From assembly GCF_026151205.1 (NCBI RefSeq), contig NC_087074.1, positions 19,957,240-20,021,239 on the forward strand: a stretch of DNA of 64,000 bases. Direction: 5' to 3'. The position numbers and the translations under genes were made by a program. The stretch is from Bolinopsis microptera (taxonomy: Eukaryota; Ctenophora; Tentaculata; Lobata; Bolinopsidae). Positions 1 through 27,936 of the stretch are shown here, in pieces. Numbering within the stretch: position 1 is the first letter of the stretch; each line of letters begins with the position of its first letter. A model generated the notes under the pieces. The model was not told where the DNA came from. It did not search any database and saw only the letters and a list, made by a program, of their open reading frames with translations.

Positions 1-1104
1 TAACCAGTGTTACAGTAGAATTAAGGTTTAAAGTTGAGATAAAGCTACTAACTATACTAACCAGTGTTACAGTAGAATTAAGGTTTAAAGTTGAGATAAA
101 GCTACTAACTATACTAACCAGTGTTACAGTAGAATTAAGGTTTAAAGTTGAGATAAAGCTACTAACTATACTAACCAGTGTTACAGTAGAATTAAGGTTT
201 AAAATTGAGATAAAGCTATTAACTATACTAACCAGTGTTACAGTAGAATTAAGGTTTAAAGTTGAGATAAAGCTACTAACTATACTAACCAGTGTTACAG
301 TAGAATTAAGGTTTAAAGTTGAGATAAAGCTACTAACTATACTAACCAGTGTTACAGTAGAATTAAGGTTTAAAATTGAGATAAAGCTATTAACTATACT
401 AACCAGTGTTACAGTAGAATTAAGGTTTAAAGTTGAGATAAAGCTACTAACTATACTAACCAGTGTTACAGTAGAATTAAGGTTTAAAGTTGAGATAAAG
501 CTACTAACTATACTAACCAGTGTTACAGTAGAATTAAGGTTTAAAGTTGAGATAAAGCTACTAACTATACTAACCAGTGTTACAGTAGAATTAAGGTTTA
601 AAGTTGAGATAAAGCTACTAACTATACTAACCAGTGTTACAGTAGAATTAAGGTTTAAAATTGAGATAAAGCTATTAACTATACTAACCAGTGTTACAGT
701 AGAATTAAGGTTTAAAGTTGAGATAAAGCTACTAACTATACTAACCAGTGTTACAGTAGAATTAAGGTTTAAAGTTGAGATAAAGCTACTAACTATACTA
801 ACCAGTGTTACAGTAGAATTAAGGTTTAAAATTGAGATAAAGCTATTAACTATACTAACCAGTGTTACAGTAGAATTAAGGTTTAAAGTTGAGATAAAGC
901 TACTAACTATACTAACCAGTGTTACAGTAGAATTAAGGTTTAAAATTGAGATAAAGCTATTAACTATACTAACCAGTGTTACAGTAGAATTAAGGTTTAA
1001 AATTGAGATAAAGCTACTAACTATACTTACCAGTGTTACAGTAGAATTAAGGTTTAAAATTGAGATAAAGCTATTAACTATACTAACCAGTGTTACAGTA
1101 GAAT
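1..1104. repeat. 57-bp tandem array rooted at the GTF3C5 exon 5 donor
   Basis: About 19 head-to-tail copies of a 57-bp unit, nearly identical (mainly G/A and C/T variants), running off the left edge. On the minus strand the unit reads ATTCTACTGTAACACTG followed by gttagtatag. The first 17 bases are the last bases of GTF3C5 exon 5 and the rest is the start of its intron. The array therefore multiplies an exon end plus splice donor, and occupies the intron directly downstream of the exon that ends at 1088. Confidence 0.95.
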
Positions 1105-4100
1105 GCGAAGTGGGGCAGGAGGGTAGTTCTTAAGGGCACTTCTCTAATCTCAATAATATTAGCAAACGATGACGTAGTCCAAATGGGTCTACTCCGGAAC
1201 ATTTCGTCTATTTTATCTCTAAACTCGTTTATGTAGTTTTGTTTGAATACGTTCAGTTCCAAATCCTGATAAAGGTAAAATTGCTACAAAGATTTGTTAC
1301 AGATTTAAAAAAGATTTAATCTACAGCTATATTGATGATGATTTTTAACCTGATATTAATTTACATTATTGTGCACCGTGGTGCTCCCAGTGCTACAACA
1401 ACAACAGTTGTTCTTGTTGCTGTTGTAGTTGTACAATGTACAATGTACATCCATGTATGTAATCAGGGTAATTTGAAGACATGATTTTTTAAATTTTAAA
1501 AGACTTACTCTACTCTTATAAGTGACTTAATCTAGAAAATGTGACATCATCTGAACCTGCCAAAGTCTAGATCCCGCAGAATTGAAAAGGGCACAAGAAA
1601 CCGCAAGAAACGGTTACATCATGCTTTTCATGGTGTAACCGTTTCTGTACGGCTAGTTAAACAGGGAATTGAAACTGTGGGGCTCCGTGCAGACCAACCT
1701 ACCTGTGGCTAAAGCTATAATATACAAAAACAATACATGGATAAACTTGTACCACTTACCCATGCTTTTAGTATTTCTACAATATGGTCTACGACTTTTA
1801 CACAGCATAATACCCCATGATGTCGTTTATTTTTAATTCTCTTTGCTGTATTGTATATGTACTATTTGTAAAAGTTTCAAATCAAATCAAATCAAGAAGT
1901 AAGTTTGAACTTGGGAAAGTTCTTCTTGAAATATATATAATATAAGTGATTACTTTCAAAACAGATGACATGTCCGCGACCTGCAAATTTGTATATTTTA
2001 TGCAAGCAAAAGTAAATGTAAATGACTATATCTAAATAAAAATCCCGCAGAATTTAAAAGCGGACCTGGTTGCATGACTGAAATTTAATTAAAGGAAGCC
2101 TGTACTTTAAATTTATCGAGCAAGTTTGGGAGCAGGAGTTAAAATTTGTAATTTAGCTTCGGTTTGATCAGCTGGTTTGATCAGCGAACTTATCACCGGC
2201 ATGACCTGGGAGGTAAACGGCCACACCCATACTTAGAGTATCACCACCAATACCATTTAGCAATCATAAATTGGGATTCATTAATCATGTTCGGCTCGAA
2301 GGGAAAGAGTACTCAAGTGACCACAAGAACTAATACAATGTTCACATGATTGCCAATACATAAATTGTAAAGTCTAATTAACTTGTATGCATCAGCACGC
2401 ACACGTACGATTAGACAAATATTCAAAATTCACAGGAGCATATTTCACGAATATCTAATACAGTTAAAATATCAGAGATAAAGGAAAAGTTTTAAGGGCT
2501 ACAATTCCTGCTTGCATGTTCTGATTGAATCTGCTGGGAGAACATAATAATTTAATCACTTATACATAATTTCATTTCTAAACCGCATTAAAATAACTTT
2601 TCAAACCTGCATGGGAGTGGAGGGGACTTCACTGTCAGTGCACTTCCAGTGTATCACTATAGATGGTCGAGCAGCTCGCACCTTCGTCTCACCCGTTCCT
2701 TTTGATGCTGAAATAAAGCAAATAATAAAGCAAACCCTAAGTTTGAGGGTTTGTAGGGAAAAAATCAGCAAAAAACGTGAAAAAATAGTGTAAAAGGGTG
2801 ATAAAAATATAAAGAAAAAATGCACAAACCTGTATCAGAATTCTGGTAAAAATAATCGAAAGGAGCGTCTCTAAGGGCGTGTGTTTGACAGTTGACTCGG
2901 ATAGAGTGCTTATCTCGGGTGATATAGTGAAAGTCTATGAGTGGGGAGACAATGCCTCTGTAGTTAGGGGTTGGCAGGGCTGGTGGGTACTGGAGCTGGA
3001 AGTCTGCCAACTTGTTGAACACTATCTCCTTCCGGACTACCCCTACCACACGGACAGCTTTTGTAATTTTGTTCACTCTAAAAAGGAAGTGTTTTAAATG
3101 AGCGTTTCTGCAGAAAGCATGTATCCAAGTAATGTAAGTTAATCTAATTTTTGGGAGGAGAAAAATTTCAAAAAGAATGTTCATTGTCCAACTATATTAC
3201 TGACAGTAACATAATAAACATTAAAATAGCTCACTTGAGGATGAGTTTGACAGCAGGCTGAACCTTTGTCTTAAGGGGGATACAGGAAGGGTTGGCCGGT
3301 CTGAGCTTCAGAGCAACATCTACAGTATCCTCTGTAATCTCAGAGGTGAGGAAAGTCAAAGCTTTCTCTGTGTTCACAACATTTCCAGGAAAAAGCAGGT
3401 CCAACCAAGTGCTGTTTTGTGGTACTGTTATTACTGGGGCACTCTGGGAAAAGGGAAATCAGGTGCTGTGGTACTGTTATTACTGGGGCACTCTGGGAAA
3501 AGGGAAATCAGGTGCTGTTTTGTGGTACTGTTATTACTGGGGCACTCTGGGAAAAGGGAAATCAGGTGCTGTTTTGTGGTACTGTTATTACTGGGGCACT
3601 CTGGGAAAAGGGAAATCAGGTGCTGTTTTGTGGTACTGTTATTACTGGGGCACTCTGGGAAAAGGGAAATCAGGTGCTGTTTTGTGGTACTGTTATTACT
3701 GGGGCACTCTGGGAAAAGGGAAATCAGGTGCTGTTTTGAGGTACTGTTATTACTGGGGCACTCTGGGAAAAGGGAAATCAGGTGCTGTTTTGTGGTACTG
3801 TTATTACTGGGGCACTCTGGGAAAAGGGAAATCAGGTGCTGTTTTGTGGTACTGTTATTACTGGGGCACTCTGGGAAAAGGGAAATCAGGTGCTGTTTTG
3901 TGGTACTGTTATTACTGGGGCGCTCTGGGAAAAGGGAAATCAGGTGCTGTTTTGTGGTACTGTTATTACTGGGGCACTCTGGGAAAAGGGAAATCAGGTG
4001 CTGTTTTGTGGTACTGTTATTACTGGGGCACTCTGGGAAAAGGGAAATCAGGTGCTGTTTTGTGGTACTGTTATTACTGGGGCACTCTGGGAAAAGGGAA

Positions 4101-4741
4101 ATCAGGTGCTGTTTTGTGGTACTGTTATTACTGGGGCACTCTGGGAAAAGGGAAATCAGGTGCTGTTTTGTGGTACTGTTATTACTGGGGCACTCTGGGA
4201 AAAGGGAAATCAGGTGCTGTTTTGTGGTACTGTTATTACTGGGGCACTCTGGAAAAAGGGATGTTTTTAAACTGTTAGCACCATTTTTATTATGTTCTAT
4301 TTTAAGGTTGGTATTTATTTAGGGTTGTGCTAGATCTCACATTTAATTACAGTGCACAGATGTTTCGGGAGTTTTAAATCTTGGAATGGGGTTTGTCAGA
4401 TGCACAATTCCAGTATAATTTAAATAAGGAAACTGCAGTGCCGGAATTTTCATAATATCAAACAAAATAAACTTTCTGCAACACTATAATGGTTTCTTTG
4501 AAGGGCTACCATCCAACAATAACAATTAATTACAAAGATACTGTCTAGCACAGGAACACTAAACCTTGCCTGATATTGGTAGTGTCACAATCTTCCTCTT
4601 ACTTTTTCGCTCTGATCTAGGGCTAAGTGGAGCATCTTTCTCCTCTAAATCAGATACCATAACCATATCTTCAAATGATTCTTCCTTAATCAAGGAGTTA
4701 CTGTCATCCAAATCCATAGCAATTGGATCATCATCTGCCAT
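1088..4741 (-). CDS. GTF3C5: General transcription factor 3C subunit 5 (TFIIIC63), 5' part, five exons
   Basis: Exons 4565-4741 (ATG at 4741), 3235-3443, 2830-3077, 2607-2707 and 1088-1265 join in phase at GT-AG sites to an open reading of about 304 residues; the C-terminal part lies beyond the left edge. GTF3C5 is a nuclear subunit of TFIIIC, the RNA polymerase III factor that recognises the internal promoter of tRNA genes. Family blocks appear in order: FPGNV and EKAL, then LRPANPSC (exon 2), APFDYFYQ (exon 3), ARPSIVIHW and EVPSTP (exon 4), SRPIW and LLPHFAFY (exon 5). Exon 1 is a divergent acidic stretch ending in a basic patch (SERKSKRK). Exon 1 is assigned by phase and position only, so it is less sure than exons 2-5. 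It lies 260 bp downstream of the TELO2 stop on the same strand. Introns 1 and 5 carry splice-site minisatellites. Confidence 0.88.
1266..2606 (-). other. GTF3C5 intron 4, no gene seen
   Basis: AT-rich intron between exons 4 and 5. It has a donor GTTTGA at its upstream end and acceptor TTATCAG at its downstream end. I see no coding exon in it; the 61-codon plus-strand ORF near 2164 has no recognisable similarity. Confidence 0.6.
3409..4261. repeat. 54-bp minisatellite carrying the GTF3C5 exon 2 acceptor
   Basis: About 16 near-perfect copies of a 54-bp unit; the second copy has a 6-bp deletion. On the minus strand each unit contains a pyrimidine tract and acceptor (gatttcccttttcccag) followed by 35 bases matching the start of GTF3C5 exon 2. 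The copy nearest the exon supplies the acceptor that keeps the frame (exon starts at 3443). The array is open in all three plus frames only because 54 is a multiple of three; I do not regard it as coding on that strand. Confidence 0.95.
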
Positions 4742-4759
4742 GACAGTATTTGCAGCTGT

Positions 4760-4776
4760 TCTATAAAAGATTTATA
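4760..4776 (-). promoter_or_regulatory. 3' splice acceptor just upstream of the GTF3C5 ATG
   Basis: On the minus strand aatcttttatag ends at 4761 and is followed by 18 bases and then the ATG at 4741. Either a 5' UTR intron ends here or a spliced leader is added here. The short gap to the TELO2 stop (5021) favours trans-splicing within an operon-like pair, but no leader gene is visible in the window. Confidence 0.45.
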
Positions 4777-5020
4777 GCCAATTTAATCAAGTTATCATCA
4801 AAATATGGGACTATGGACTTACGTTAATTAAGATGAAATCAATAGTGTAGTTTAATTGATAATTTCATATCATTAATTTTAGAAGTAAGAATTAGTAACT
4901 AATTATGTGGGGATAAAATCAAATATAGCATATTATAATAAAGTATAGAGATTAAGTTAAAATTAATATTATAGGTACCGTCAACAAACATCATTTTTCA
5001 AAACAGGAAAATATTTAATC

Positions 5021-7591: not shown

Positions 7592-7593
7592 TT

Positions 7594-7612
7594 TCTGAAA
7601 AATTAATTACGT
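7594..7612 (-). promoter_or_regulatory. 3' splice acceptor 3 nt upstream of the TELO2 start
   Basis: On the minus strand gtaattaatttttcag is followed by AAA and then the TELO2 ATG. The match to the acceptor consensus is excellent and leaves essentially no 5' UTR in the exon, as seen for spliced-leader acceptors. A cis-spliced 5' UTR intron is the alternative. Confidence 0.5.
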
Positions 7613-8651: not shown

Positions 8652-11600
8652 AAAACGGTTGCTGACACAGCATTTGGACTTATACCTAGTATGACCTCTT
8701 ATATATACAATAAATTAAATCAAGTGATGCAATTGGCAGAGCACAATCGTAAATCCTGAGCAATAGATATCATCTATCCCTCGTAGCTCTTCTCCTCAGG
8801 TATCAGGTTGAAGGAGACGTTGAATATAGGGGCGGTCCATGCCTTCTTTGCCTTTCCACGTACACCTCTAACTGCTACTAGCACACTCCTCATTATATCC
8901 ATGCTCAGGCGTGTCCTGATGTTACACATCACCTGGCTGTAGTCCTCCTTTGTCTTGGTGGCTATCAACACAGCAAGTCTCCTTATGAAACGCTTGGCCT
9001 CCGGTGCCATTCCTCCTGTAGTGGTAAATACAAGGGGGACGAATGACCCTTTCTCCAATTGTAGCACTCGGTTCATGTACTGGTTCTTTTTCTCATTCTC
9101 GTGCAGAGTGTAGAGCTGTGGCATGGTCTTTCCTTGATATGTAGGCGATTTAGGATTGAAAATGCGCACATCAAAGAAAGTCCTCTCAAATGTGCTCCAC
9201 ACTCCTCTTGCTGATATATCAAGCCTAGCCTTATCAGCATTGTTGCCCTTTTGTTGGAAGTTGGCCGATTCTATAGGTGTTAAAAGGGGCTCAATCCTCA
9301 CATCCTTGGTCACCAGCCTAAGGTATTCAGCAACGGAGTCTCTCACGTTGTTATGACGGTAGTTCACATACCCCCCTCTCTTACAGTTGAGGATATGATT
9401 GTGATCATTCTTGGCTCCACAATCGCAGAATCTTGGGGTGTTAGGGATGTCCCAACCATACCGGAGATGAACAGCATCTCTGAAGTCTTGCTTGCTGTAA
9501 GCATACCCTAGCTGTTGAATGGGAAGACATGTTAGCCAAGCTCCTGACCCATGCTCTTGTACCAGCTGCAATGACTCCCTGGTATTCTCATCCACTTCAC
9601 TCATTATCTCAGCAAGCTCCTTCTTCAAGCATAATTCTTTAACTAACTTGAGGCAATCTACTCTGCCCTTTATCTTAAATTTATCCAACTTCATCAGGGA
9701 TGTCTCCTGGTGATAGATAAGGTCAACCAGCTCCTCTGTTATCTTGAGTGACGTCTGGTATTCCTTCTCCGCGATCTCTACTGGATTAACAATACCAAGC
9801 CCCCCTAATCTTACAGGTAGCGCAAACATTCTCCTGTGCAGATCAGACACATTCCTACCAATAATTGCAGGGATGAACTTTTCTCTTATACACTTCTCCA
9901 ATGGGATGAAGAGGTCTTTAGTGTCTTGGATGGTACGCATCACAAAGGTCCACCGATGACATAGGGCTTTGGTATACCCTGATAGGGCTGCCTGAGGTTC
10001 ATCGAGGGCAATATCTGACAACTCTTCTACATCCTTCACCCATTTCTCTACTTTCTTTTTTACATATGTCTCTCTAGCCTCCTCTCCACCTATCACTGCT
10101 CCCAGATGACGCTCCCCATCACATGTGATCTCTATACCAGTCTCTCCAAATAAAAACGTGGCTGCTGGTAGTAGCGATTTTTCTTTTAGGATAAGAATAG
10201 TCTTCACTGCTTTAGGGAAGTAGCCTAACTTAGGACCGTTCACACTGAGTAAATCCCACCACAGCCGGAGTTTCTTCAGGGTACCTGCTGCTGCAGAGTC
10301 ATCTGCATACCACGCTTGCATCAATTCTCCTAATTTTTTCACGCTGGCCAGGATGTTGATAAGAGGACGAATACCGATAGCATACTCTGCCATTGCTGCC
10401 ACATCCCCTTGCGTTGCCCCTTCATCAGAGTAAATTATCTCACACGAATATGTGTCGTTGACAATGAGTTTGGCTGATTTCTGATAGGTGTTTTTCAGGT
10501 ATTGGTGAAACGGAGGACATAGCTGCCTGATGTTGTGAATAGCTGCTTTGCGATTAAGCCTGTTAAACGCATTATCAGCATCAACAAGAAGCACTGCCTC
10601 TGTCTTAGGATCTTCCCATGTCCTCTTAACTGCTCTGATGGATGCCTCAATGCCTGACTCTAGCCCAGCACATGACTGAAGAGGTCCTGCAGCCTCTTGT
10701 ATATCATCCTTAATTACCCCAATAACCACCTTGCCAACAATACGCCGAAGAACCTCTCCTACCCCCACCGGCCGTACACCAGGATTACCTCTCTTATCGT
10801 CACCCTTATTCAGTGGTACCAGTCTACAGGCCACAAACTCATTCAGACTCTCTGGGTTAACATCCTCTACACACAAACGCTTTGCAAATTCAGCTATTGC
10901 ACCGCAGAGTTGAAAAGGAAGTTTCCCATACGCTTTAGAGCACAAGATGTGCTTCCACCCATCTGCATCCAAATGGGTTGGGCCACCTGAGCCCTTAACA
11001 TGAAGTGCCGCTTTCTCAACTAGCTCTGCCGATATTTCAGCAAATACCACCGACTGTGCCTGAGGCGCTGTTATAGGTAGAAGGATATCAGCTGGAGGTG
11101 TCTCAGCTTTAGGATGTTTCTCTTGTAATAGACTCTTTATCTTTCTATTTAATGTGTGTACCCCAACAACTGAGTCTTCGTTGTTGATGAGCTTCATGGC
11201 CTGACATACTTTACCCACCATCATTAACCTACTAAAGCCTTTCATTTTCGATGGATCTTCAGACTTTTTCCTTCGTTTTAGCTTCTCCTGGATGACACGA
11301 GCTTCATCCATGAGGGAATTGAGGTCGCCATCCTTCCACTTTTCTAGTCTATCTACCAGGTACTTGGCATTGTCTCTAGCTTTTGACTTAGATGAAGGCT
11401 TCTGTAACATAATAGGGATAAATATATGGACTAGCTGCAATGAAAGACTCTCCCAAGCCGTTTTATTCACAAAAAGGTACAAAAGTCGTGTCAACTCTTT
11501 GATAAACTTCTCCCCACTCTTACCCCTTGGCACCATAAACAAATTCCTACACCACGTAATAATTTCATCATATATCCCCGTAAGTTCTGACCGTATACAC

Positions 11601-12166
11601 CCTTCCCCAACCATGGTACCCCACGTCAAATTATTTGATCTATTCAACTGGCAGCAGTCACAATACCATTCATCATCTTCACTGGTTTTATGATCCTCAT
11701 ACTCTTCATCACTCATACACAAGCAGGCCTTATGAATCCAAACCTTGCACTCCTCACACTGCAAAGCATCTACATGCCATTCAACTCTGGTTTTACATAT
11801 AGGACATATGTCATCTATCTTCTCCTTCTCATTTGGTCTACATTTTTTCTTCTTATCGACTCTTGTTTTATGATTGATGTTTACTTCTAGGACTTGAGGT
11901 CTATTTAACAAGGGTTTCTCTGTTCTGATGTGGCGCCGAAAGTCATATCTCGAAGAAGATGATGGAGGTTTGATAGAATTGGTTGAGTTTAATACTTTCT
12001 GATTATTAGGATTTGGGGAGGCCATATTGGGCGACATAGGTTCATTGGACATAGGTTCGTTAGTACTTTCTTCTTCAGCTTGTTCATTGGTCTCTACATG
12101 TTCTGTACTGGCTGGGGCACTCAATAAATGTAATAGATTTGTAGTGTTGTAATTAGTTTAAAAATG
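8652..12166 (-). mobile_element. Complete PHD-RT-endonuclease non-LTR retroelement
   Basis: A 3515-bp insertion bounded by the 10-bp target-site duplication. It holds one long minus-strand ORF, about 120 bp of 3' sequence and about 40-115 bp of 5' sequence depending on the start used. It has no terminal repeats and no poly(A) tail at its 3' end (low-coordinate side), so it is compatible with target-primed reverse transcription by an element lacking a poly(A) end. The intact ORF and perfect duplication indicate a recent insertion. It landed inside an already frameshifted LINE fragment. Confidence 0.88.
8774..12124 (-). CDS. PHD finger + reverse transcriptase + restriction-like endonuclease polyprotein
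   Basis: Open from 12157 to the stop at 8774; counting from a TTG codon at 12124 it has 1116 residues, but the first in-frame ATG is at 12052. Domain order, numbered from 12124: a PHD finger (C107, C110, C123, C126, H131, C134, C155, C158); a reverse transcriptase with motif A VDADNAF (511-520), motif B GATQGD (569-574) and motif C YADD (606-609); a CxC-H-C zinc motif (C900, C902, H910, C914) followed by RHN (923-925); and a PD-(D/E)XK-like block with D969 and FFDV (D985). The zinc motif plus RHN plus Asp pattern is that of the restriction-like endonuclease of R2-type non-LTR elements. The enzyme would copy its RNA at a nicked target. All catalytic residues are present and no frameshift is seen. 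The exact clade is not assigned. Confidence 0.85.
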   Translation of the reverse strand: MSAPASTEHVETNEQAEEESTNEPMSNEPMSPNMASPNPNNQKVLNSTNSIKPPSSSSRYDFRRHIRTEKPLLNRPQVLEVNINHKTRVDKKKKCRPNEKEKIDDICPICKTRVEWHVDALQCEECKVWIHKACLCMSDEEYEDHKTSEDDEWYCDCCQLNRSNNLTWGTMVGEGCIRSELTGIYDEIITWCRNLFMVPRGKSGEKFIKELTRLLYLFVNKTAWESLSLQLVHIFIPIMLQKPSSKSKARDNAKYLVDRLEKWKDGDLNSLMDEARVIQEKLKRRKKSEDPSKMKGFSRLMMVGKVCQAMKLINNEDSVVGVHTLNRKIKSLLQEKHPKAETPPADILLPITAPQAQSVVFAEISAELVEKAALHVKGSGGPTHLDADGWKHILCSKAYGKLPFQLCGAIAEFAKRLCVEDVNPESLNEFVACRLVPLNKGDDKRGNPGVRPVGVGEVLRRIVGKVVIGVIKDDIQEAAGPLQSCAGLESGIEASIRAVKRTWEDPKTEAVLLVDADNAFNRLNRKAAIHNIRQLCPPFHQYLKNTYQKSAKLIVNDTYSCEIIYSDEGATQGDVAAMAEYAIGIRPLINILASVKKLGELMQAWYADDSAAAGTLKKLRLWWDLLSVNGPKLGYFPKAVKTILILKEKSLLPAATFLFGETGIEITCDGERHLGAVIGGEEARETYVKKKVEKWVKDVEELSDIALDEPQAALSGYTKALCHRWTFVMRTIQDTKDLFIPLEKCIREKFIPAIIGRNVSDLHRRMFALPVRLGGLGIVNPVEIAEKEYQTSLKITEELVDLIYHQETSLMKLDKFKIKGRVDCLKLVKELCLKKELAEIMSEVDENTRESLQLVQEHGSGAWLTCLPIQQLGYAYSKQDFRDAVHLRYGWDIPNTPRFCDCGAKNDHNHILNCKRGGYVNYRHNNVRDSVAEYLRLVTKDVRIEPLLTPIESANFQQKGNNADKARLDISARGVWSTFERTFFDVRIFNPKSPTYQGKTMPQLYTLHENEKKNQYMNRVLQLEKGSFVPLVFTTTGGMAPEAKRFIRRLAVLIATKTKEDYSQVMCNIRTRLSMDIMRSVLVAVRGVRGKAKKAWTAPIFNVSFNLIPEEKSYEG

Positions 12167-13190: not shown

Positions 13191-13194
13191 ATTC

Positions 13195-15477: not shown

Positions 15478-16781
15478 TTACCTCCGTTGTCGTTTCTCTT
15501 TTTTCTTTTTGTCCTTATTACTTGCTCTACCCGGGCTGGCACTTCGTTTTCTCTGACGTCGTTTCTCTTTCTCCTTCTTTTCTCTTCTCTCTTCCCGCTC
15601 TAACTCTGCCTTAAGTAACTCTAACTTCCGAATATCTTCCTCAAGATCGCTATCATGAACTTTATCTTTCTTCTTCTTCTTCTTGTTTTTCTTTTTCTTA
15701 TCTTTCTTCGCTTTGCTGCTATGAGATAGTGATCTACTCCGACTCCCCTTCTCGGAACCTAAACTTTCTAATCGAACAAGTCCGGGTTTCTCCTGCTCGG
15801 ACTCTAACTCTCCTTCCTCCTTGCTCTCCTCAATAGATGTGGCTGCAGCAGTTGGTGACGCCAGTTTCTCCTCCAACAGACTATCTATAGGAGAGCCGGA
15901 GGGTGACCTTATTTCTGCCAACTTGGCTTCAATTTCCTTTTGAGACTCCCCGTCTTCCTGAGACGTCTCCATTCTCTCCGGCGTTTTTATTGTTTTGTTC
16001 TCCTCACCAGGTTCACTCTCCAAAGTCTTGTCCAGCTCCGGAGTTGCAGCCCTGTTAACCTCAGGCGTCGCAGCCTTGTTTAGCACGGATGTTGCAGCCT
16101 TGGTAACAACTTCCTCAGCATCCTGACTAGCCCATTCTAACAAGTCGTCGTCAACTTCAGCGTGTTTCGGAGTTTTCACTGGAGTAGGCGGCAGATTCTC
16201 CTCCTCATGAGCAGGACTCTCCTCCTTTGTTGGCTCTATAGGGTCGTCGTCCTTCTTTCTCTTCAGATAGGTCTGGAGATTAATAGCCTTCTTCTCCAAC
16301 TTCATAGGTGACTCCGCTAGAGTAGCTTCAGATTGAGAGCTCTCCTCAGGTTCCTCAACTGCACGACTGTAAGGGAGGGGTTCCTCAGCAACAGGACTAG
16401 TTACCTGCGGCGTCTCCTGGGGTATGTCTTTAGGGATGGATAGTGTAACTGGCGGTGACATGCCTGGGTAATAGTAATCCTCACCCTCCTCATTGTTCTC
16501 CGGCATAGGTAGCGCATAGTCCTTGGAGTTGAGAAGGTGGACTATACTGTCGTCGTCCCGTTTTACGCTAAGACTTTCCTGACTGACTGATCGCGGTATT
16601 GCTATGTCGTTAAGTTTGTCGAGTTTAGCGCTGACTTGCTCCTCTTGTTTCGTGATGTAGGCGTTCTCTTGCCCGTTACTCAAAAACTGCCCCAAGGGCG
16701 TATCTTTTGATGGGTTGTCACGAGTAGTCTCCTTCATCGATACCAGCAGCTTCTCCAGGATTGTCCCCGCACCTTCTGATT
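15478..16781 (-). CDS. Lysine/serine-rich nuclear-looking protein, or alternative last exon of SCAF4/8
   Basis: One exon open from an acceptor (ataaatttcag, ending at 16782) to TAA at 15478; 433 codons in the open frame, with a first ATG at 16737. I do not recognise the N-terminal two thirds. It is acidic and rich in Pro/Ser/Thr/Glu, with three similar short blocks (AATSVLN, AATPEVN, AATPELD). The C-terminal 110 residues are a highly basic KKKK/RRQRKRS region containing a charged probable coiled coil (LELLKAELEREERREKK). Three readings are possible: a separate gene with a spliced-leader acceptor 491 bp downstream of the SCAF stop; an alternative terminal exon of SCAF, because splicing from SCAF exon 15 (phase 1) joins in frame here; or a gene with unseen upstream exons. 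The TAA is embedded in AGgtaata, so a further exon cannot be excluded. Confidence 0.65.
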
Positions 16782-17272
16782 CTGAAATTTATGGTCAAGA
16801 ATTTTTTTGTCTAGCGTACAATACATTTTGGTCTGCGTATTTCCATCTAGTTTTTTTGTGTGATATTTATCGAAAAATATGGAAAACAACAAAAAGTCCT
16901 GATTCAATATCATAAGTTAAACTGATTTGAATAATTGTAACAATAACATGTAGCAATATATCACATTTGCATAGAAATAATAATAATAACAGATCGTTAC
17001 AAAATTATTCTCAAAACTATGAAATAGTTCACACGAAAGTCAATAAACACCCCTTAAGGCTATACTTAGAAATTTCAGCATTTTCAAGACCAGACTTACA
17101 TATGTATAGCTTATTCAACTCTCAAACCATGATATCTTTATATATAAGATGATCAAAATATGCCACAAAAAGGATCAAAGACGAATTCGTAAAGAAATTC
17201 GTTGGGCTGGATCTAATCAAACACTGTCATTGCATATAAATCTCAACAGAGCATATACTATGCTAATAATAG
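16782..17272. other. Short gap between SCAF stop and the lysine-rich ORF
   Basis: 491 bp with no coding exon seen. Its AT-rich sequence would hold the SCAF 3' UTR and the outron or intron ending at the acceptor at 16782-16783. Confidence 0.5.
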
Positions 17273-20200
17273 CTAGTGTCCGAAAGGAGGCCTATTGTTT
17301 CCGCGGGGTCTAAATGTCATTCTAAAAGGACCTCTCTGTCCCATGGGGCGGGGACCAGGTGGACCGTTGAAACGAGGACGTGCCGGACCATTACCTCTAG
17401 GAGCAGGACCTCGCATACCGCCAAATTGTGGGGGCGGAGGACGTCCGAATTGTGCGCGCGGGGCCCCTCCCCGATAGGTCCCGGGACGTGGCCCCGAGTT
17501 GGCATGGTCAGAGCTAAAGCGTGGTCCTGAGTTGGCATGGTCAGAGCTAAAAGCCATGTTCTCAAAGCGTGCCATGTTCTCTAGTGCTGCAAAATTCGGA
17601 CGATGCTGTACAGGGCCCCTCATTTCTTCTAGGGAAGGGCGGATTGAAGAACTGTTTCTGTCAGAATCGGGACCAGGGAAATTTTGTGGGTCTCCAGGAG
17701 GCCGAGGACGGACAGGTCTTTCACCGTTTTCTTCATCCAAAAATAAAGGTTTTGGATCGCTTAGAGAATACTGATTTTGGTTGTTGAACCTCGGAATCCC
17801 AGGAGAAGATGGTTGGGCATGTCGAGGTGGAACTGATCGCATAGAGTTGACATATCTAGGCTCTCCAGATCTTGGGTCGATTGGAGAGTACTGGTTTTGA
17901 TTATTAAACATGGGGATCCCTGGAGAGGATGGTTGGGTATGTTGTGGCGAAGCTGATCGCATAGAGTTGACAAATGTCGGCTCTCCAGGACTTGGATCAC
18001 TAGGAGAGTACTGGTTTTGATTATTAAACCTTGGAATCCCCGGAGAAGATGGTTGAGGACGTCGTGGAGAAGTTGCCCGCATCTGATTGACAAATGTGGG
18101 CTCTCCAGGCCTTGCTTTAGAAGGTGAAGGAACAGTTCTGGAGATCGGCACACTGCTATTAAAAGGAGGTAGACTCCCCGCATGAATTCGAGCGTTACTG
18201 GCAGACTCCATCGACGAAGGGCTGGAGCTGATCCCTCCAGTCAGATAAATGTTATTCTTAGGAGAGCTGGATTTACGGAATGGAGGTAGACCTCCAGGGT
18301 ACATTTCATTCCTCTTACTCCTGTTCGGTTCAGAGTCCGACTCGTTATCGGAGTCCATCATGTTTCGAGCTAATGTTCTAGGACTAGGAGGAGAGGGAGA
18401 TCTCCTGAACCTGAACAGCGGAGTAGGTTCGGAAACAGGGACCGGCTGTGCAGGTCCTAAAGTAGGTGCACCGAACCTGGGACCTGGCAGAGGCATCGGA
18501 CCGGGCAGGACAGGCATCTGTGGAGAAGGCAAAGGAATCTGGTTCAAGTTGGGCATGTTAGAAGGAGGGAGCATATTGGCCATGTTCGGAAGAGGAATAT
18601 GGTGAGGAGGAGGAGGTAAAGAGAAGGGAGGAGCCATGCCTTGGAACTGTCCAGGAGGAGCAGGACGTGGCGGCATCCAGCCAGGTACTCCGTGGGGAGC
18701 AAGTGGTGTCATGCCAGGCATTGGGAAAGGAACAGACCCGTCAGGAGCTGAATCTGGAACGGTGGGAACAGGCAAAATGGGGATGGGCGGGAAAACATCC
18801 ATCATCTCCTCGTCTGAGTTACTCTCGATCTCGGTTGGAATTTTGATGTTGGGATTCATAGAGAAAACGGCCATGCTAGGTGGTATACTGAGGGACATCA
18901 GCGGAGCATGTTGTTTTCTTTTAGCTTGGCGTTCTTCTTCCTCCTTCGCATCTGATGGATAGAGATTTAGATTGGAGGTGTACTTTGAGAGTTGGGGAAA
19001 TAATTTGTAGTCGAGACTCGACTTAAGTTGACTGGATGACATTTGTCAATCTTTAATTATAGGAATTCACTTTCAGATCACCGTCAAGCAGTGGATAAAA
19101 TGACAACAATCATTTCAAAATTTTACCGTCTTCAATTTCCACAAAGAATCGTAAAAATCAGTTATTTTTAACTGTTATCAAATGTTGTGTTGATAATATT
19201 GCATGTGCATTGTGCGTTAATCAAAAATTTCTTTTGAACACGAATTATAATATTTTAATGTCACAACGGGCCTTATCATTGGGATCATATTTTCATAGTA
19301 CCAGCACAATCGATAAATTGAAAATATATTTTGCACTGTCGTTGCGACCTATATAATGTAATCTAAAGACTTTCTGAATCCATGGTACGTACCTTAATTA
19401 TTATCCTAATTTTCGCAATAATGCATAAAATAATTACTCGTCCATCAGTCTTATCAGTCAAGTTATGATTTCATTGTCACAATTTCAGTTATTTACAAGT
19501 ACAAGCTATATTTGCAAGACTGCCCTTTCATCTCGTGGATAAAATAATAGCAAACAAATTAATATATTTTATTCGGAATAAATCTGTCGCAAACATTATA
19601 TGTTTTGCTGATTACAATGCAATACAAAACAGTACAGTACATGTCGTACAATACAATACAATACAAAATTGTGTAATGAATTGTAAATTGCAATACATAG
19701 GAATAATTTTAAAAACTCGAGGAATTGGCAGCTTCCGGACAAGTAGTCGATACTTGGATCAGCTTCAGTATTGATATTGTTTCTCTATACGATTCTCTGC
19801 AACATAGCTTGGTGATGTCAGCCTTAGATGATGCTATGGAGTCGTGTAGACCAGATTGGTCTGAGGAGTTCAGGACTTGGCTGAAGGGACTGATACAGCT
19901 TAGTTTTGATTCGGCAGTCTTGAAGAATGCAGACAACTGGTATGAGGTCGTTAACGGTGTACCCACTGGAGGTATCAATTCAGTGGATTGCGGTAACATT
20001 GCTTTGTTCTTTGTCCTAAAGAGTCTGGTTTACGACCCGGTTGTTAGACCAGAGGAGCTCAAGAACCTTGATCGGTTTGTGGATGATATTTCGGGCCAAG
20101 GTATGTGGAGAGGTTCTATGATTGGTTTTGAAGAATGGGTAGGGTCATTACGCAGTAAGATGGTTGATAACTATGGCTTAGATATTACATACGAAGTGAA

Positions 20201-23200
20201 ACCAATCACGGAGTTCACTCAGTTCCTGGACATTCAGTACAAGTTTGTTGGAGGGAGACTCACAACAGATCTGTTTAGGAAACCTACTGACGCCAACAGG
20301 TATCTAGAATTCTCAAGTTTCCATCCACGACATACCTTCCGGAGTATAGTCTTCTCACAGGCACTTCGATACAGAAGGATAATCAATGATGACGTCTTGC
20401 TGGATGAGAGATTGGCAGAGCTTCAGTTGTTTTTTGAACGGTCTTCATATCCTACTGATATGGTGAGAGAGGTCATCAGTGATGTCAGATCGATACCAAG
20501 AACTTTACAGTACAAGGCAAAGGATCAGGGTCCCCCTTCTTTCACACCATGGATTGTTACATTCGGTGCGGGCTATGAGGAAACCAAGGAAAAGGCTAAA
20601 GAGGCCAGTAACATCATCTCAAATAGCCGTACATGGAGCAGTGAGAACCCTGAGAGGATCCCTAAACTCCAAGTGGTGACCAGGCGAGCCCCTAACTTAA
20701 AGGACACTTTATTCAAGAGAAAGAAGCTTGCCTTAGGTTCAGAGTCAAGAACAACTGACCCATGCACCAAACCTGGTGAGAAGAAGAAAGGCAGACCCTG
20801 CCAAACTTGTCACCTTGTTAGTGGCAATTCCATGGTCTCCAATAATGGACACTCAGTCAGAACTCAAGGTGGTAACTGTAAGACACGCAACATTGTGTAC
20901 GGCGCGACATGCAAACTTTGTACTGTTAATAACGTATACGTGGGAAAAACAGTCACCAGCCTCAGCCAACGTGTGAATGGTCATCGCAGTAAATATTATG
21001 AGATTTTAGAGGCGAGTAGTAAGGGGAATGTTGAGAGCCACAGAGATTTTGATGACGAGAATGTTTTAGGGGCACATCTTTTTTCAGTTCATAATTTGAG
21101 GGAGAGATCTGTTTTCAATGAAAGTTTCCATTTTGATATTTTGTGTTCTACATCCCCAGATAATATTAGAAAGTCAGAACAGTTTTATATTAACAAATTG
21201 AAGACACTTTATCCGTTTGGCCTGAACAATGTGAATTCCGTTTCTGGAAGTTAATTTTTCATGGTGTCCCGAATTTTATTTTTAAATCGTCCATTTTTTG
21301 TTTATATATGCAGTCTATCAATTTTTGAATTGCGTCTTTTTGATTTAATGAACTACTGCAGACTCCACATTATTATAGTATATGCGATTAATTTTGTTCC
21401 GATTTTAAACTATTCCATTTTTACGAGATGATAAATTAATTTTTTGAGACTTTACTACATTTTTGATGAGAATTTTTGACATTTTCAAACTAACCATTGA
21501 TATTCTCAGATTATGTGACTGATTAAATGCTGAAGATAAAAGAAATATATTCATTTTGCTAAGATTATGTTTGCGTTTCATTGCTCAACAGCTGTTCGAA
21601 GGATCAAATATAAGAAAAGCAATACATAGGTATCTATAATTCTATAAAATCATAATCTTGTTGATAAAAAGTGGTTGATACAAATTTGTTAAACTTTATT
21701 GTGCTGAGATTTTGATTTAATTTTGAGATGGAAATACGCAGATTTGAAATGTTTAAATTTCTTGATAGTATAGTCCTAGTTAAATTAATCGAGGTCAATA
21801 AATACGACACATCATAACATTACTGTCAACCATAGCCATCTTCAATGTTTAAATATAACCATCGTCTGAATGCATTTTGAGAAGTCCAAGATCAATCGAT
21901 TAACCAAAATATAATATCTTTCGATATATGGTCGGTTTTAAAATATACACGAGGCGTTCTTAAGAACAGACATTTGTAAACAGAAGGCTATGGTTGACTA
22001 CACAAATAGGTAACATTTTTGAGCGTGAGGTTTCCTTCAAGATAATTACATAACAAGTTTCCCAGTGACAAAAAGACTTAAATAACATGCTTTTTTACTA
22101 TTCGAATAGCGATCAATTTATCAGAGTAACCTCGCGCTCAAATTTCATGCTAGTGAAATGTTACCATGTAAAATGTAATAAATAGTTATTACGACTGGTG
22201 GGTATATTAATTCAAATTGGGATAGTTCGTCGAAATAATTACAACAATTGTTTTCAAGGTCCTGTCCAGCCTACAAAATGTTCAAGAACGTTTTTCTTCA
22301 GAGCGGACATTTTGCAAAAACTTTAATCAAATGTGGAGAATTTAAGAAATGGAGAGAACATGATGAGAGTGCTGGACCGGACCGAAACCTTGGCGGATCC
22401 TCAATATCATTAGGCTTGGCACGGACAAACACACGAATGGATAACGCAAGGATGGCAAGGGCAAATAATGGATGGTTTTCTGTGGTCGTGCAATCTTGAT
22501 ACAGTGTTAGGAAATGCTGAAAATTTCTGCAGAGTTAAGACACAGTTAATAAACTGCGGAGTGACTAAAATGCTACAATGACGGAAGATCTTTTAACTCA
22601 TTGTTAACGAACACAGTTGTGGTGGGGGCCGGGATTACTACGAAATGAACGGAGCGTGCCTTGGATATTGCAATTCGTTACAAGTATTTACACGGTACTG
22701 TAAAACATCAATACGGGATCCATCTAGAATGTGAATCATTAATCAGCTTTGTTGGCGAGATTGAAAATCAAAATTTTTAATAATGCAAAAATTGCATTTT
22801 AATAATGAGTTTTTTCCCTGCGAAATTAAATCCCTGCGAAATTAAATCCCTGTTTCTAGTTTTATTTTGATTTGAGCGTGGAGCTTGAAGCAGGTCAATC
22901 TTCAAATTTCTTGCGGCATATATTAATTGTTGAGTGTTAATATCTATATTATAATTTTAGCATTTATCTATATAATTTTAAGATGGTTCCCGTACAAGAT
23001 GTTTCACAGCATCTGAAAACTTAGCAATAGAAAACAGAAGTAAGAATCAAAATTAAAATCTGTGTTAAAAATAGGCTCATGATTGTAGTTTTATTATTAA
23101 GGCTGGCCAAAAGATACTTCTGTTCGCTTACCAACCGTTTAATTCATTCTCCTGAGTCACAGGCTAATTATTCGGGTTAAAACGGTCCAAAATTTGCATT

Positions 23201-26200
23201 ATGTAGCTCCATTTAATCCGTCGTGTTTTCACATTCGTTACCAAAACGTGAAATTTTGTTGTCATTTCAGCAACTGCCTGATATTGAGGACCAGCACCAG
23301 GTCCCATATAGGTGGTACAAACCTTGAAGTTTGAAGCCCTGTGGTAGTGTAGTCTCCTCGATCACACCCCCATCCTCCAGCTCACTTATTTTCAACTTTT
23401 CAAAGTTTTTGTGGGGAATGAACGTCACTCCCTTTTCAATGTTCCAGTGTTCTTTGAACTCCTTGCAACCCTTACCAGGTGCCCACGCTACCTAAATAAT
23501 GGGATTTATGATTCTGAAGAATTGGGATAATGTTTAGCGATGAATTTAATAAAATTCCAGGACTATAAAACTAATACCAGATCATTTGATATTATTAGCC
23601 TGAAAATGCATCTTATGTTCCGTACTTTACAAAGTGCTCCGTGCAATTTCAGGTTTTCCTTCAAAAGCTCCTTCAGGACATTTTCTGCGACATCTCTATC
23701 ATTAACATTTATGTAGGAGCATCCTCGTGGCGGCACCATCTGACGGACCACAAGTTAGGATTTGCAAGGTAAAATTTCAATATAATCATCGAAAGTTTAA
23801 AATGTTAAAGTCATTAAAAAAAATAATAATATTAGATAGAAACATATTACTTGAGTGAGGCTGAAGAAAAATTGAATCGTTCAAAAAATAAACAAACTTA
23901 CATCAATACTGCAGGACTCAGTGTATTTCTTCATTAATGACGAAATATCTGATTTTGTGACCGTTTTTCTCAGGTTTCCAATCCAAATGGTCGTACTCAG
24001 CACCGATACGCAGTCGGGCTTCGAGTTTCTGTCCCTTTTCCGGGAGTAGTGGCCCGGACTGGTTGATCTGGATCTCTTACCGGATCTGCCCCCGGATTTG
24101 CTACTTCTCCGAGCCTCTGGAGAGCTTCTCCTTCGAGATGATTTGTCTCGAGATCGTTCCCGTGATCTTTCTCGAGACTTATCGCGCGATTTGTCTTGCG
24201 ACCTGCGGGTATGTTCGGATAATTAGAAAATCAACAGCGAGTACAACTGATTTGAAAATTGCCCAATTAAATCTAATTTGTATGTATGTACTATGTATAA
24301 TTTGTATGTATGTATAATGTTCAATAATAACCTGTCTCGGGGCCGTTCTGAGTGTGAATCTCGCTTCTCTGATTTGTGGGACTTCTTGTTTCTTTCCGGT
24401 GACTTGTGTTTCGACCTACAAGTAGATAAGAGATTTAAAGAGACATTAAAGATTATTTATAGCGTTTCCAGTGGGTTCAGTATCTAGAGAAGATCAATAA
24501 AAAAGTCGGCATTTTAATTGCGAACATGGGATCGAATAAATAGGATTTTAATGAGAGCTGGTAAAACACCAAAAGTTACGCACCTTTTTCCAGGTTTATC
24601 GATGGGGGAGGGTGTGTAGAGTTTCTCTAAATTTCTGGTGTCATATTTGTCGACTGGTTTAGAAGCTGAAAGCTCCTTGGGAGGAGGATCAGGTTGGTAT
24701 AAACTGGTATCGTGAGTTGTGGTCACTGGAGAGGGGGTCGAGAGGTTCTCTGTCTTCTGGAGATTAGTAGAGTTAAAAGGGTTGCAGATCTGATCTGTGT
24801 CATGATTGTGGAATCAATGGAATGTGAAGTATTGAACTTGTGTGTAGGTATGTACAGAGTGAAATGTGAAGTATTGAACTTGTGTGTAGGTATGTACAGA
24901 GTGAATATGTGAAGTATTGAACTTAATATGTGTGTAGTTACAGAGTGTGGACGTAGTTTGGGTGAGGATGAGGCCGGTGTCCAGGTTGCTACGAGATTGT
25001 GAGAACTTTCTTTGTGGCGTGACCTTTTCCTCTTGTCAGGATTTGAGCTTTTTGAGCGGTTCGATCCATTTGAGCGCGATCGGTAGAATTCATCAGGTTC
25101 CTAAAGCAATATTGCTACACTTCTGCGATCTCAATTCAACGGTATTGTAACTCATTGCACAGTAATTGTGAGCAATTGTATTGTTTAATGAATGAGTGAT
25201 ATATCCTCTGTTTGTTCACTTGGATTCAACAATTATTTGACTGCCACAATAATTATTTATCCATCATCAAGCCATTTATCATCTAACGATGTATTCATCA
25301 GACATTTTAAATACAATATACATTTATATATAAAGTATCATAAATATTCAAAAATTAATAGTAACCTTAGGTGTAGGGATAGAAGGAGGAGGAGTAGATT
25401 TGCTTTTAGGCGTTCCCTTCTTTCCTGGTTGTTTTATATCGTCCTCATCACTATAATCGAAATCGTCTAACAACGACTGAAGATACAGCTATCAAAGATT
25501 AGGTTTTTAAAACTGAGAAAATACGGAGTTCATCGAGTTTAAGAAAGCTGCAACATCACCTAAAAGAGAAAACTAAAAAACAGATAGTAGTGACTAAAAA
25601 TCAAATTGAGCAGTTAATGACATACCTTCACTTTGTTAGCTGTCTCACTAGCGCGGACGTTGTCATCTGGGACGGCGTTTTCTTTGGGTTGCTGTAAGCA
25701 AATTGGTGAATTAACTGGTTAGTTGACCAACTCATATTACATTTTCACTTTCAGGACCCAGATTTAATTCTTCGGAAATTCAATTTTCAGTTGATCGGTA
25801 AATTATCATAAAACATGCTTGTAAATGGAGTATTGGTTACAAAACTTACTCCAAAATGAAGTAGTTTCCCTAAAATCGGCGGTATTGACGACGAATTCTG
25901 TTTTAACAAAGCCTCTTGCTTCCGCTTCAACTGCGAACGAGATATATCAGTATTGAAATATCAGTATTGAAATATCAGTATTGAAATATATCAGTATAGA
26001 GACAATATAGGAAATCTAATTTACAATCCAAAGTCCATATTAAAATATTCCCTTTAATTCCTAAGAACCAAAGTTTACCCATCAGAACAGACTAAAAACA
26101 CAGAAGTTTAAAAAAAGAAAAAAAGAAATCTTACCTCCTCTTGCTGCTCCTTTATTTTGCGTCTCTGTTCTTCAAGTTCTTTTTGTTGTTTAACTATGTC

Positions 26201-27936
26201 TGGTGTAGCTACAGGCTTTATAGCCATCTTCGCTATTGATTTCTCTGCTAAACCTACTCCTTCTGTAAATTAATTTGTTAAAAAGATTAGAAAAAAAGGT
26301 TAACTTGTTTAAGGCTTTCATTTTGAAAATGTTCGGAGGTGATTTTAATTACAATAATCGAACTCAGCTAATAAGGAGTAATAGTTTTGAATGGTAATAG
26401 CATCACACACTATAGTCAAATATTGACCTATGAAAAATGCGACCCAAAAAAGTTTCAGGTGTACTTGCCTTTCCTAGCTTCAGGATTTGCGTTATTTAAA
26501 CATTTCTGGATGGAATGATACGAAAAGACTTTGTTAAGCTCCCACAGTTTAAATGTTCTGCAGATCTTGACCTGAAGATTTTATCAGTATCAATTTCGAT
26601 ATACGTTTAATGAGAGCATATATATCGTCAAAAACTGTTCAATGAAAGACTTTAAAAGACGATCAAATATTAACTCATAGGGACATTCATGTATTAGGGA
26701 GGGATTAGGGAGCCAATTTGTAAACCGCTCACCTGGTCGGTGCGGGAGCATTTGAAGAGATGTGTGGCGGTGATGTGAAGGTTAGACTCAAACCGGCCCG
26801 CGTACACGTCCTTCTCCTTGTTCTGGTGGCGGGACTGCCGGACTATCGCATCTATCACGTAAATCCCGGACAACTTGTACTCCGGCTTACACTGAGAGTG
26901 GGGACAGGAGATTTAATTTGGGGATACTGAAATCGTCACAAATATTGTAGAATTTGTTGGATTTTCTTGTTTTTCAATGGTATGGTAAATGGTAAAAATA
27001 ATTTTGGGTATTGTTTAGTTTTGTCACAAGAGGTGCTCCCCCGGCCCCCCAGTATAGAGGTGCCCCCGGCCCCGGCCCAGTATAGAGGTGCTCCCCCGGG
27101 CCCAGTATAGAGGTAACTCCTCCCGGCCCCCAGTATAGAGGTAACTCCCCCGGCCCCCCAGTATAGAGGTAACTCCCCCCGGCCCCTCAGTATAGAGGTG
27201 CTCCCCCGGGCCCCGGCCCAGTATAGAGGTAACTCCCCCCAGGCCCAGTATAGAGGTAACTCCTCCCGGCCCCCAGTATAGAGGTAACTCCTCCCCCGGC
27301 CCCCCAGTATAGAGGTAACTCCCCCCGGCCCCCCAGTATAGAGGTAACTCCCCCCGGCCCCCAGTATAGAGGTAACTCCTCCCCCGGCCCCCCAGTATAG
27401 AGGTAACTCCCCCCGGCCCCCCAGTATAGAGGTAACTCCCCCCCGGCCCCCCAGTATAGAGGTAACTCCCCCCCGGCCCCCCAGTATAGAGGTAATTCCC
27501 CCCGGCCCCCAGTATAGAGGTAACTCCTCCCCCGGCCCCCCCAGTATAGAGGTAACTCCCCCCGGCCCCCCAGTATAGAGGTAACTCCCCCCGGCCCCCC
27601 AGTATAGAGGTAACTCCAGCTCCCCCCCCCCGCCCCCCCCCCCCCAGTATAGAGGTAACTTACCTTCTGAACAAGTTTTTCTACTGACATCACTATGTGC
27701 TTGTAGTACTGAAATTGTGGGTTAATTGTGAAACCGGGAATGCTGCATAATTCTTATCAACATTCACAAACTGCGATAGAAAGAATAACGTTAATGTAAT
27801 GCAATTGAGCGTACAATATTGATTGAGCGATATCAATGCATGAATATCTAACCTTTTGAGCTTTCATAGCATTCCGAGTGATGTCTTTCATCTTGCTGCT
27901 CGAGACTGGCGGCTTCTGAGTGAGCATCTCCGCAAG
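17273..27936 (-). CDS. SCAF4/8: SCAF4/SCAF8-type SR-related CTD-associated factor
   Basis: Fifteen exons join in phase to 1151 residues: 27853-27936, 27664-27708, 26733-26891, 26469-26571, 26135-26262, 25850-25930, 25626-25691, 25366-25476, 24942-25100, 24584-24756, 24332-24415, 23902-24202, 23626-23739, 23323-23491, 17273-18951. A first exon for about 12 N-terminal residues is not located. The CID, which binds the phosphorylated RNA polymerase II tail, spans the first four exons (KPPVSSSKM, YYKHIV, KPEYKLSGIYVIDAIVRQSRHQ, FKLWELNKVF). Next come a charged KQQKELEEQRRKIKEQQ helix and LLDDFDYSDEDD (human SCAF8 has LMDRFDF), an RS-rich stretch, and an RRM (RNP2 TIWIGNL, RNP1 RGCSYINV) followed by the SCAF-specific block EKGVTFIPH and GGVIEETT. 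The last exon is Pro-rich with RG repeats. SCAF4/8 restrain early polyadenylation during elongation. Human SCAF4 is about 1147 residues. I numbered the missing exon as 1, so the listed exons are 2-16. The intron after exon 5 uses a GC donor. Confidence 0.92.
18952..19700 (-). other. 3' part of the last SCAF intron
   Basis: The last exon is placed at 18951 because an acceptor (ctctatccatcag) there matches the phase left by exon 15. An ATG at 19042 also opens the same frame, so an alternative start 30 codons upstream is possible. Otherwise AT-rich and non-coding. Confidence 0.5.
19700..21254 (+). mobile_element. Penelope-like element with RT and GIY-YIG endonuclease, 5'-truncated
   Basis: Plus-strand frame of 509 codons (from a TTG at 19725) ending at TAA 21254, antisense inside the last SCAF intron. 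RT motifs in order: SIDIVSLYDS (motif A, about 15-24), NGVPTGGINS (motif B, 77-86), RFVDDIS (motif C, 117-123), then FSSFHPRHTFRSIVFSQ, characteristic of Penelope-like elements. A Cys pair (CQTC, about 359-362) precedes the GIY-YIG nuclease (VYGATCKLC, YVGKTV, QRVNGHR; about 391-421). The N-terminal third including the early RT motifs is missing and no proper start is seen, so this copy is truncated at its 5' end. No internal stops, hence fairly young. Confidence 0.88.
21255..23322 (-). other. 5' part of the last SCAF intron, no gene seen
   Basis: AT-rich intronic sequence. It begins at the donor GTTTGT (23322). The plus ORF 22248-22499 has no supporting features. A short tandem CCCTGCGAAATTAAAT duplication lies near 22810-22850. 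Confidence 0.5.
24821..24947. repeat. 42-bp tandem repeat (3 copies) spanning the SCAF exon 10 donor
   Basis: Two identical 42-bp copies (24821-24862, 24863-24904) and a third, diverged copy that overlaps the true exon-intron junction at 24941-24942. In minus orientation each starts with CACTCT, the last six exon bases, followed by a donor-like GTAC or GTAA. The third copy holds the splice site that preserves the SCAF frame. Confidence 0.85.
25942..25999. repeat. 14-bp tandem repeat next to the SCAF exon 7 acceptor
   Basis: Three and a half copies of ATATCAGTATTGAA, starting about 11 bases into the intron from the acceptor at 25931-25932. Unlike the other arrays it does not include the splice site. 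Confidence 0.75.
26262..26469 (-). other. GC-AG intron in the SCAF gene
   Basis: Exon 5 ends AGGAAAG followed by gcaagtac. Only the GC donor leaves one base (phase 1), which pairs with the two bases that open exon 6 at 26262. The nearby GT (four bases on) would give the wrong phase. Confidence 0.7.
27030..27661. repeat. About 20-copy C/G-rich minisatellite at the SCAF exon 3 donor
   Basis: Irregular units of roughly 27-35 bp: AGTATAGAGGTAACTCC plus a variable run of C and CCGGCCCCC. The array abuts exon 3 (ends 27664). In minus orientation the intron begins gtaagttacctctatactgg, and every unit repeats agttacctctatactgg, so the array seems to have grown out of the first 20 intron bases. The transcribed strand has runs of 4-10 G in every unit, favourable for G-quadruplexes. 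ORF readings across it are artefacts. Confidence 0.93.

Follow-up and report, generated by a model that had tools for sequence, protein, structure and literature searches.

Minisatellites that run across exon-intron boundaries have been described as "mirages" in amphioxus, and two papers (PMC3087553, PMC3902484) list the globin genes BflGb6 and BflGb9, Adh3, TnC, and PGBD5 as hosts, with TnC and PGBD5 as further cases in PMC3902484. The units of these mirages are 10–160 bp long, and BflGb6 has haplotypes with three and six copies (PMC3087553). They were proposed as raw material for new introns, on the basis of a handful of genes in one lineage (PMC3087553, PMC3902484). Outside of cephalochordates, no such arrays were found among the matches listed for the open-license PMC literature, which was covered mostly at the level of titles and starts of abstracts. 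The accessible portions of three ctenophore genome papers (PMC11797021, PMC12221973, PMC8527503) do not mention arrays at splice sites; among these papers, Tandem Repeats Finder (TRF) is reported to mark 13% of the Hormiphora genome.

Here we describe arrays of this kind in the lobate ctenophore Bolinopsis microptera (264.65-Mb genome). The window, i.e., the whole 64,000-bp stretch analyzed, lies at positions 19,957,240–20,021,239 of contig C3 (21,284,423 bp) and includes part of GTF3C5 and a SCAF4-like gene. A sequence-only reading of this window had reported four minisatellites in these two genes, each with one end exactly at an exon-intron boundary, and had known of no standard description for them; the amphioxus mirages are in fact the same kind of structure. 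All four arrays are called by TRF at the places claimed. Two of them straddle a splice junction, one abuts a junction, and the junction claimed for the remaining one is unsupported. That minisatellites of this genome can hold splice sites together with exon ends is confirmed by their recurrence in independently sampled genes. The structure is real, known in kind, now seen in a ctenophore, and apparently not rare there. We consider it probable (roughly 0.6) that these arrays are mirages in the sense of ordinary minisatellites of short introns, which are tolerated since the exon-proximal splice site still works and which need no aiming at splice sites. The features of GTF3C5 are listed below in window coordinates, with a slash marking the splice junction in sequence motifs.

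1..1104, minus strand: array 1, a 57-bp minisatellite of 23 copies (TRF) that spans about -208 to 1104 and crosses the left edge of the window
1088..1265, minus strand: GTF3C5 exon, with its donor AACACTG/GTTAGT within array 1
3235..3443, minus strand: GTF3C5 exon 2, the first 35 bases of which are part of array 2
3409..4261, minus strand: array 2, a 54-bp minisatellite of 15.9 copies (TRF) that spans the acceptor of GTF3C5 intron 1 (3444–4564)
4565..4741, minus strand: first coding exon of GTF3C5 (model)

GTF3C5 was built as an eight-exon model in which every intron is GT-AG. The model protein is similar to human GTF3C5 (chain 8clk_E, E = 5.4e-21) and also to a GTF3C5-like protein of Watersipora, and a search for a GTF3C5 protein of B. 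microptera found none. Array 1 fills intron 5 (1087 to -290, 1,378 bp), save about 82 bp at the acceptor end, and extends 17 bp into the upstream exon, such that the junction is internal to the array. Each of the 23 copies carries ATTCTACTGTAACACTG followed by GTTAGT (22/23) or GTAAGT (copy 2), and few sites vary among them. The joined protein FYCNTG^PWRGMW aligns to human 8clk_E across the array 1 junction with no gap, and splicing at an alternative copy would bring a stop codon into the frame. Array 2 consists of 35 bp of exon 2, the acceptor CCCAG/AGTG, and 818 bp of intron 1; this junction is also internal to the array. The acceptor was placed by the GT-AG rule, the reading frame, and the gene finder, and protein homology starts further into the exon. 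The copies are near-identical, with 97–98% matches between copies in arrays 1 and 2, the units of which combine a splice site with exon bases. The 15 acceptors matched by CCCAG in array 2 have similar scores, and the farthest copy has TCCAG. Alternative copies of array 2 would cause a frameshift (49 nt to the next acceptor, followed by 54-nt steps).

The remaining two reported arrays and several other repeats belong to the SCAF4-like gene.

17752..18114, minus strand: 120-bp ×3.0 array within a SCAF4-like coding exon, away from any junction
24274..24320, minus strand: 24-bp ×2.0 array, 11 bp from the donor of a 129-bp SCAF4-like intron, missed by the sequence-only reading
24821..24947, minus strand: array 3, a 42-bp repeat (TRF, 2.5 copies at 24821–24924, plus a looser copy)
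25944..25989, minus strand: 14-bp ×3.3 array, separated by 13 bp from the acceptor of exon 25850–25930
27030..27661, minus strand: array 4, a GC-rich minisatellite of about 29 bp in about 20 copies (TRF, 28–29 bp at 27029–27631)
27664..27708, minus strand: SCAF4-like exon (YYKHIVMSVEKLVQK), the donor of which borders array 4

The donor AAG/GTAAGT at array 4 agrees with RefSeq isoforms X2 and X4 (VEKLVQK/CKPEYK); the SCAF4-like RefSeq proteins that match the window are those of B. microptera. By eye, the last unit-like stretch of array 4 begins at about intron position +4 of this donor; the array is interrupted by a run of C, which places the TRF edges 32–46 bp from the donor. The unit has AGTTACC in common with the donor region and zero exon bases, such that array 4 abuts the junction and does not straddle it, and the units beyond the first have no GTAAGT. 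A PDB search with the frame through array 4 gave no match. Array 3 sits in the intron at 24757–25365 of isoforms X2 and X4, which splice IPTPK straight to KTENLS and bypass the putative array 3 exon (24942–25100). The gene finder also leaves out this exon, which has a noncoding score (-6.1) and a poor donor (-4.1, compared to a minimum of 1.6 among the 53 training donors). The location of array 3 at a splice junction is therefore unsupported, with the qualification that other isoforms could contain the exon. In sum, of the array ends that had been placed exactly at boundaries, that of array 4 comes close, whereas the junctions of arrays 1 and 2 are inside the arrays and that of array 3 is unsupported. 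Similarly, a splice site plus exon bases in the repeat unit, proposed for the first three arrays, holds for arrays 1 and 2 and is unsupported for array 3. The further statement that every clear minisatellite in the two genes fits this pattern is contradicted by two coding arrays in SCAF, namely the 120-bp array and a 33-bp ×2.0 array (TRF), and by a 20-bp ×13.1 array in GTF3C5 intron 6, which is located just beyond the window in mid-intron, the two intron junctions being 298 and 478 bp away.

The recurrence of such arrays was assessed in the window, in 10 kb of its left flank, and in a further 26 loci of 10 kb each. None of these 26 loci was picked by repeats: nineteen have set positions (3, 9, and 15 Mb on C1–C5; 3 and 9 Mb on C6–C7), and the remaining seven are at kinesin Pfam matches. 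Gene models were obtained with a custom hidden Markov model gene finder that was started from GTF3C5, TELO2, and SCAF, and were then curated by eye. The ten resulting models have 72 introns, to which loci L016, L034, and L035 each add a single one; in the GT-AG check, 2/72 introns have a boundary that is 1–3 nt off, which leaves the counts unaffected. TELO2 has 90% identity to a Mnemiopsis leidyi protein across 73% of its length. From the translations, we take one of the modeled genes to be GSPT1, and others are presumably HIRA and prefoldin, consistent with Pfam matches.

Six arrays straddle junctions in four of the approximately thirteen modeled genes, the junction at L035 being a predicted one. 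Donors are straddled by array 1, a 38-bp array in L033, and the array in L016; acceptors are straddled by array 2, a 21-bp array in L033, and the array in L035. In the kinesin gene of L033, the joined motor domain of which matches Pfam Kinesin (E = 9e-70), the donor AGTCTTCTAGGTCCCACGCG/GTAAGT and the intron start are duplicated (38 bp ×2.0, with 20 exon bp), and the 21-bp array TTTTCAG/GAGGTAACAGTATG runs through the acceptor of the exon encoding GGNSMTLMIAC (14 exon bp), with a total of about 39 copies distributed over two blocks. The frames of 24 acceptors in this array, the real one included, are mixed (11, 7, and 6). The set-position locus L016 has a donor array of 48 bp ×6.1, in which six copies of ATCATAAGCAG are each followed by GTA. 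The first copy is the end of the predicted exon, and this exon end (11 bp) is exactly kept in all six. The junction comes from the gene finder, and the sole Pfam match of the protein is below threshold (DUF4139, E = 0.00086). In the kinesin gene of L035, a 205-bp unit (×2.4, with 6 exon bp and four copies of the junction word) spans an acceptor predicted by the gene finder; the upstream exon is unmodeled. Taken together, these six arrays are boundary-spanning minisatellites as in the definition of mirages, with a splice signal and exonic bases in the unit, which arrays 3 and 4 are not. Both 5' and 3' boundaries are affected, and the copies are homogenized in array 1, array 2, and the L016 array.

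Other arrays lie beside junctions or away from them. In L032, a 13-bp ×21.7 array starts at donor +1 (distance 0) and a 21-bp ×29.6 array starts 5 bp from a donor. Besides that of GTF3C5 intron 6, mid-intron arrays are found in L032 (41 bp ×12.8), L034 (31 bp ×4.5, the one array of this locus with a TRF score of at least 100 in modeled introns), and L035 (12 bp ×13.4); the modeled introns of L029, L030, and L031 hold no array at this score.

Several additional observations were made at these loci. The 21-bp kinesin mirage of L033 is divided by an 858-bp insert (L033:6467–7324) with inverted ends (AGGCCACAGGGG ... CCCCTGTGGCCT), features that suggest a DNA transposon, and by eye a similar stretch seems to be present in a predicted exon of L029. 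At L032:5260–5470, the intron that precedes a kinesin exon holds a partial copy of that exon (GAGATATATCAGGAAGAGATACG). This copy adjoins a 21-bp array, the unit of which is found again in the intron that follows the next exon. Outside any gene model, L024:7020–7523 has a 33-bp ×15.3 array with a unit that combines a strong donor (CGG/GTAAGT) and the acceptor-like TTTCTTTAG. Long arrays whose period is divisible by three occur at L021:2765–5509 (33 bp ×83), L018:1–635 (39 bp ×16), and L026:7942–8146 (15 bp ×14), and those of L018 and L026 fall within predicted coding frames. In the window, an open reading frame between the host genes (8774–12157) shows weak similarity to reverse transcriptases (RVT_1, 26.6 bits, under the cut-off of 29.6), and a second open reading frame in the SCAF4-like gene region (19713–21254) has no Pfam match and, as we presume, resembles a Penelope-like element. 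The SCAF4-like isoforms X2 and X4 have two alternative long terminal exons (17276–18952 or 15481–16788; tblastn, region 15478–19045).

The anatomy of the arrays, the near identity of their copies, and their recurrence in independent genes are observed directly. As to their origin, a small tandem duplication would arise straddling, or just beside, a splice junction of a short intron. The exon-adjacent copy would stay a working splice site and the protein would remain intact, while the remaining copies would turn into intron and be free to multiply and homogenize, possibly via slippage or unequal exchange within the intron. Such arrays would be nearly neutral, and most wholly exonic duplications would be purged. 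Where ancestral introns were short and the genome is rich in repeats, many seeds may lie at or near junctions in the absence of targeting.

Distances in the introns of today are misleading because arrays lengthen introns. For the null model, each array was shrunk to one unit, a random unit overlapping the intron was drawn, and the chance of its straddling or lying near a junction was obtained, with collapsed lengths entered by hand. The collapsed introns of arrays 1, 2, and 4 are about 139, 357, and 178 bp long, and the corresponding probabilities that a random unit straddles a junction are 0.57, 0.26, and 0.27. The count set has 15 arrays, including the four from the sequence-only reading, and a 10-array subset omits the window and its flank. 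The 21-bp blocks of L033 were counted as one array, and where TRF gave periods of 88 and 109, the basic periods of 29 and 21 were used. All arrays with TRF scores below 100 and all arrays outside modeled introns (including L032 277–394 and 8785–8869, L030 6980–7151, and L034 9722–9803) were left out, as were the L018 and L026 arrays within predicted coding sequences, the 205-bp ×2.4 array of L035 (predicted acceptor, upstream exon unmodeled), and a 28-bp ×7.3 array of L033 that is 11–12 bp beyond the predicted gene end. Two candidates were rejected as intronic arrays: a 48-bp ×6.8 array in L027, where the intron is false and belongs to a mobile-element gene, and a 48-bp ×2.3 array in L014, where the 58-aa gene is not credible.

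These counts bear on the possibility that splice junctions are hot spots at which duplications are seeded by a process linked to transcription or splicing, such as R-loops, breaks, or RNA-templated repair. Straddling by itself shows no significant excess, with 5/15 arrays compared to 2.89 expected (P = 0.13) and 3/10 compared to 1.60 expected outside the window and flank (P = 0.19). Weighing against mere tolerance are the arrays that touch a junction or lie at most 5 bp from one, which are more numerous than expected, namely 8/15 compared to 3.40 (P = 0.004), and 5/10 compared to 1.92 outside the window and flank (P = 0.018). Within 30 bp, the numbers outside the window are 7/10 compared to 3.25 (P = 0.006), and adding the 205-bp array of L035, for which an intron was assumed, gives 9/16 compared to 3.73 within 5 bp (P = 0.002). 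The two L032 arrays that begin at donors (distances 0 and +5) and the origin of the L016 case from a set-position locus point in the same direction, and pure chance placement is strained. However, the 5-bp limit was chosen after seeing the data, and the outside-window P values for limits of 0, 3, 5, 10, 30, and 70 bp are 0.053, 0.073, 0.018, 0.032, 0.006, and 0.12, respectively. When array 4 is scored at its TRF edge instead of its by-eye extension, the count is 7/15 compared to 3.40 (P = 0.022). Moreover, repeats are dense in general, as TRF arrays with periods of at least 10 cover 9.0% of the 190 kb of the 19 set-position loci (82 arrays, 40 of them with scores of at least 100). Because the limit was not preset, P varies with the limit, and repeats are dense, an excess of arrays at junctions is suggested and not established. 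An initial sign of junction targeting in the donor motifs of array units (mean percentile 0.61, P = 0.005; 52 units with scores of at least 100 and periods of 15–150; 0.60 and P = 0.02 in a rerun) was rejected as evidence. When the window units are removed, the enrichment is no longer significant (0.565, P = 0.19, n = 42), and controls with permuted columns give values up to 0.585; acceptor motifs in array units show no enrichment (0.50, P = 0.84). The junction-seeking process of the earlier interpretation gains some support from the excess over the collapsed-intron null, which is tempered by the dependence on distance limit, the small sample, and the lack of significant motif enrichment outside the window; we regard hot spots as possible, yet distinctly less probable than tolerated minisatellites.

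Selection for redundant splice sites, which had also been offered, or for a regulatory effect of repeat length on splicing, may explain why splice signals are retained throughout array 1 and why the array 2 acceptors score alike. Nevertheless, this conservation is uninformative because the rest of the unit is equally uniform. The other copies would be harmful if used, giving a stop in array 1, a frameshift in array 2, and mixed frames in L033, which argues against selection for redundancy, and GTAAGT is missing from the later units of array 4; this explanation appears improbable. Even less credible is a reading in which errors in the gene models make ordinary mid-intron repeats look like arrays at junctions. 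This does hold for array 3, and the L016 and L035 junctions depend on the gene finder, but the junctions of array 1 and L033 are GT-AG and fall within conserved protein sequences, and RefSeq backs that of array 4.

Six straddling arrays in a ctenophore suggest repeated origins of the structure, which may be common wherever minisatellites abound. A more far-reaching proposal is about as tentative as the hot spots themselves: if the splice junctions of this ctenophore are birth hot spots of minisatellites, mirages would occur in a few percent of introns and would be a live source of new splice sites and of new or shifted introns. Amphioxus would then share this process, which would be an unrecognized, animal-wide route of intron evolution. 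B. microptera has a chromosome-scale assembly and RefSeq proteins, and targeting versus tolerance is measurable there.

Among known systems, tandem duplications also copy splice signals in CNN00420 of Cryptococcus (PMC2395259) and in the potato RdRp gene (PMC4974935), although those copies are spliced as extra introns, whereas the ctenophore copies lie within a single intron. The dual-specific splice sites of UBC (PMC10809524) likewise have splice motifs in each tandem unit, comparable to CAG/GAG/GTAACA in the L033 unit, although the UBC repeats are coding and variably spliced. Direct repeats near splice borders (PMC11782384) are similarly close to intron borders, but are short (4–30 bp) repeats around two borders rather than multi-copy arrays. 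Compared to the amphioxus mirages (PMC3087553, PMC3902484), the arrays described here are in a ctenophore host, range from 2 to about 39 copies as opposed to 3 and 6 in BflGb6, and come from the sequence of one assembly. The two agree in that tandem units carry a donor or acceptor plus exon bases, either boundary of the intron may be involved, and the copies are homogenized within each cluster.

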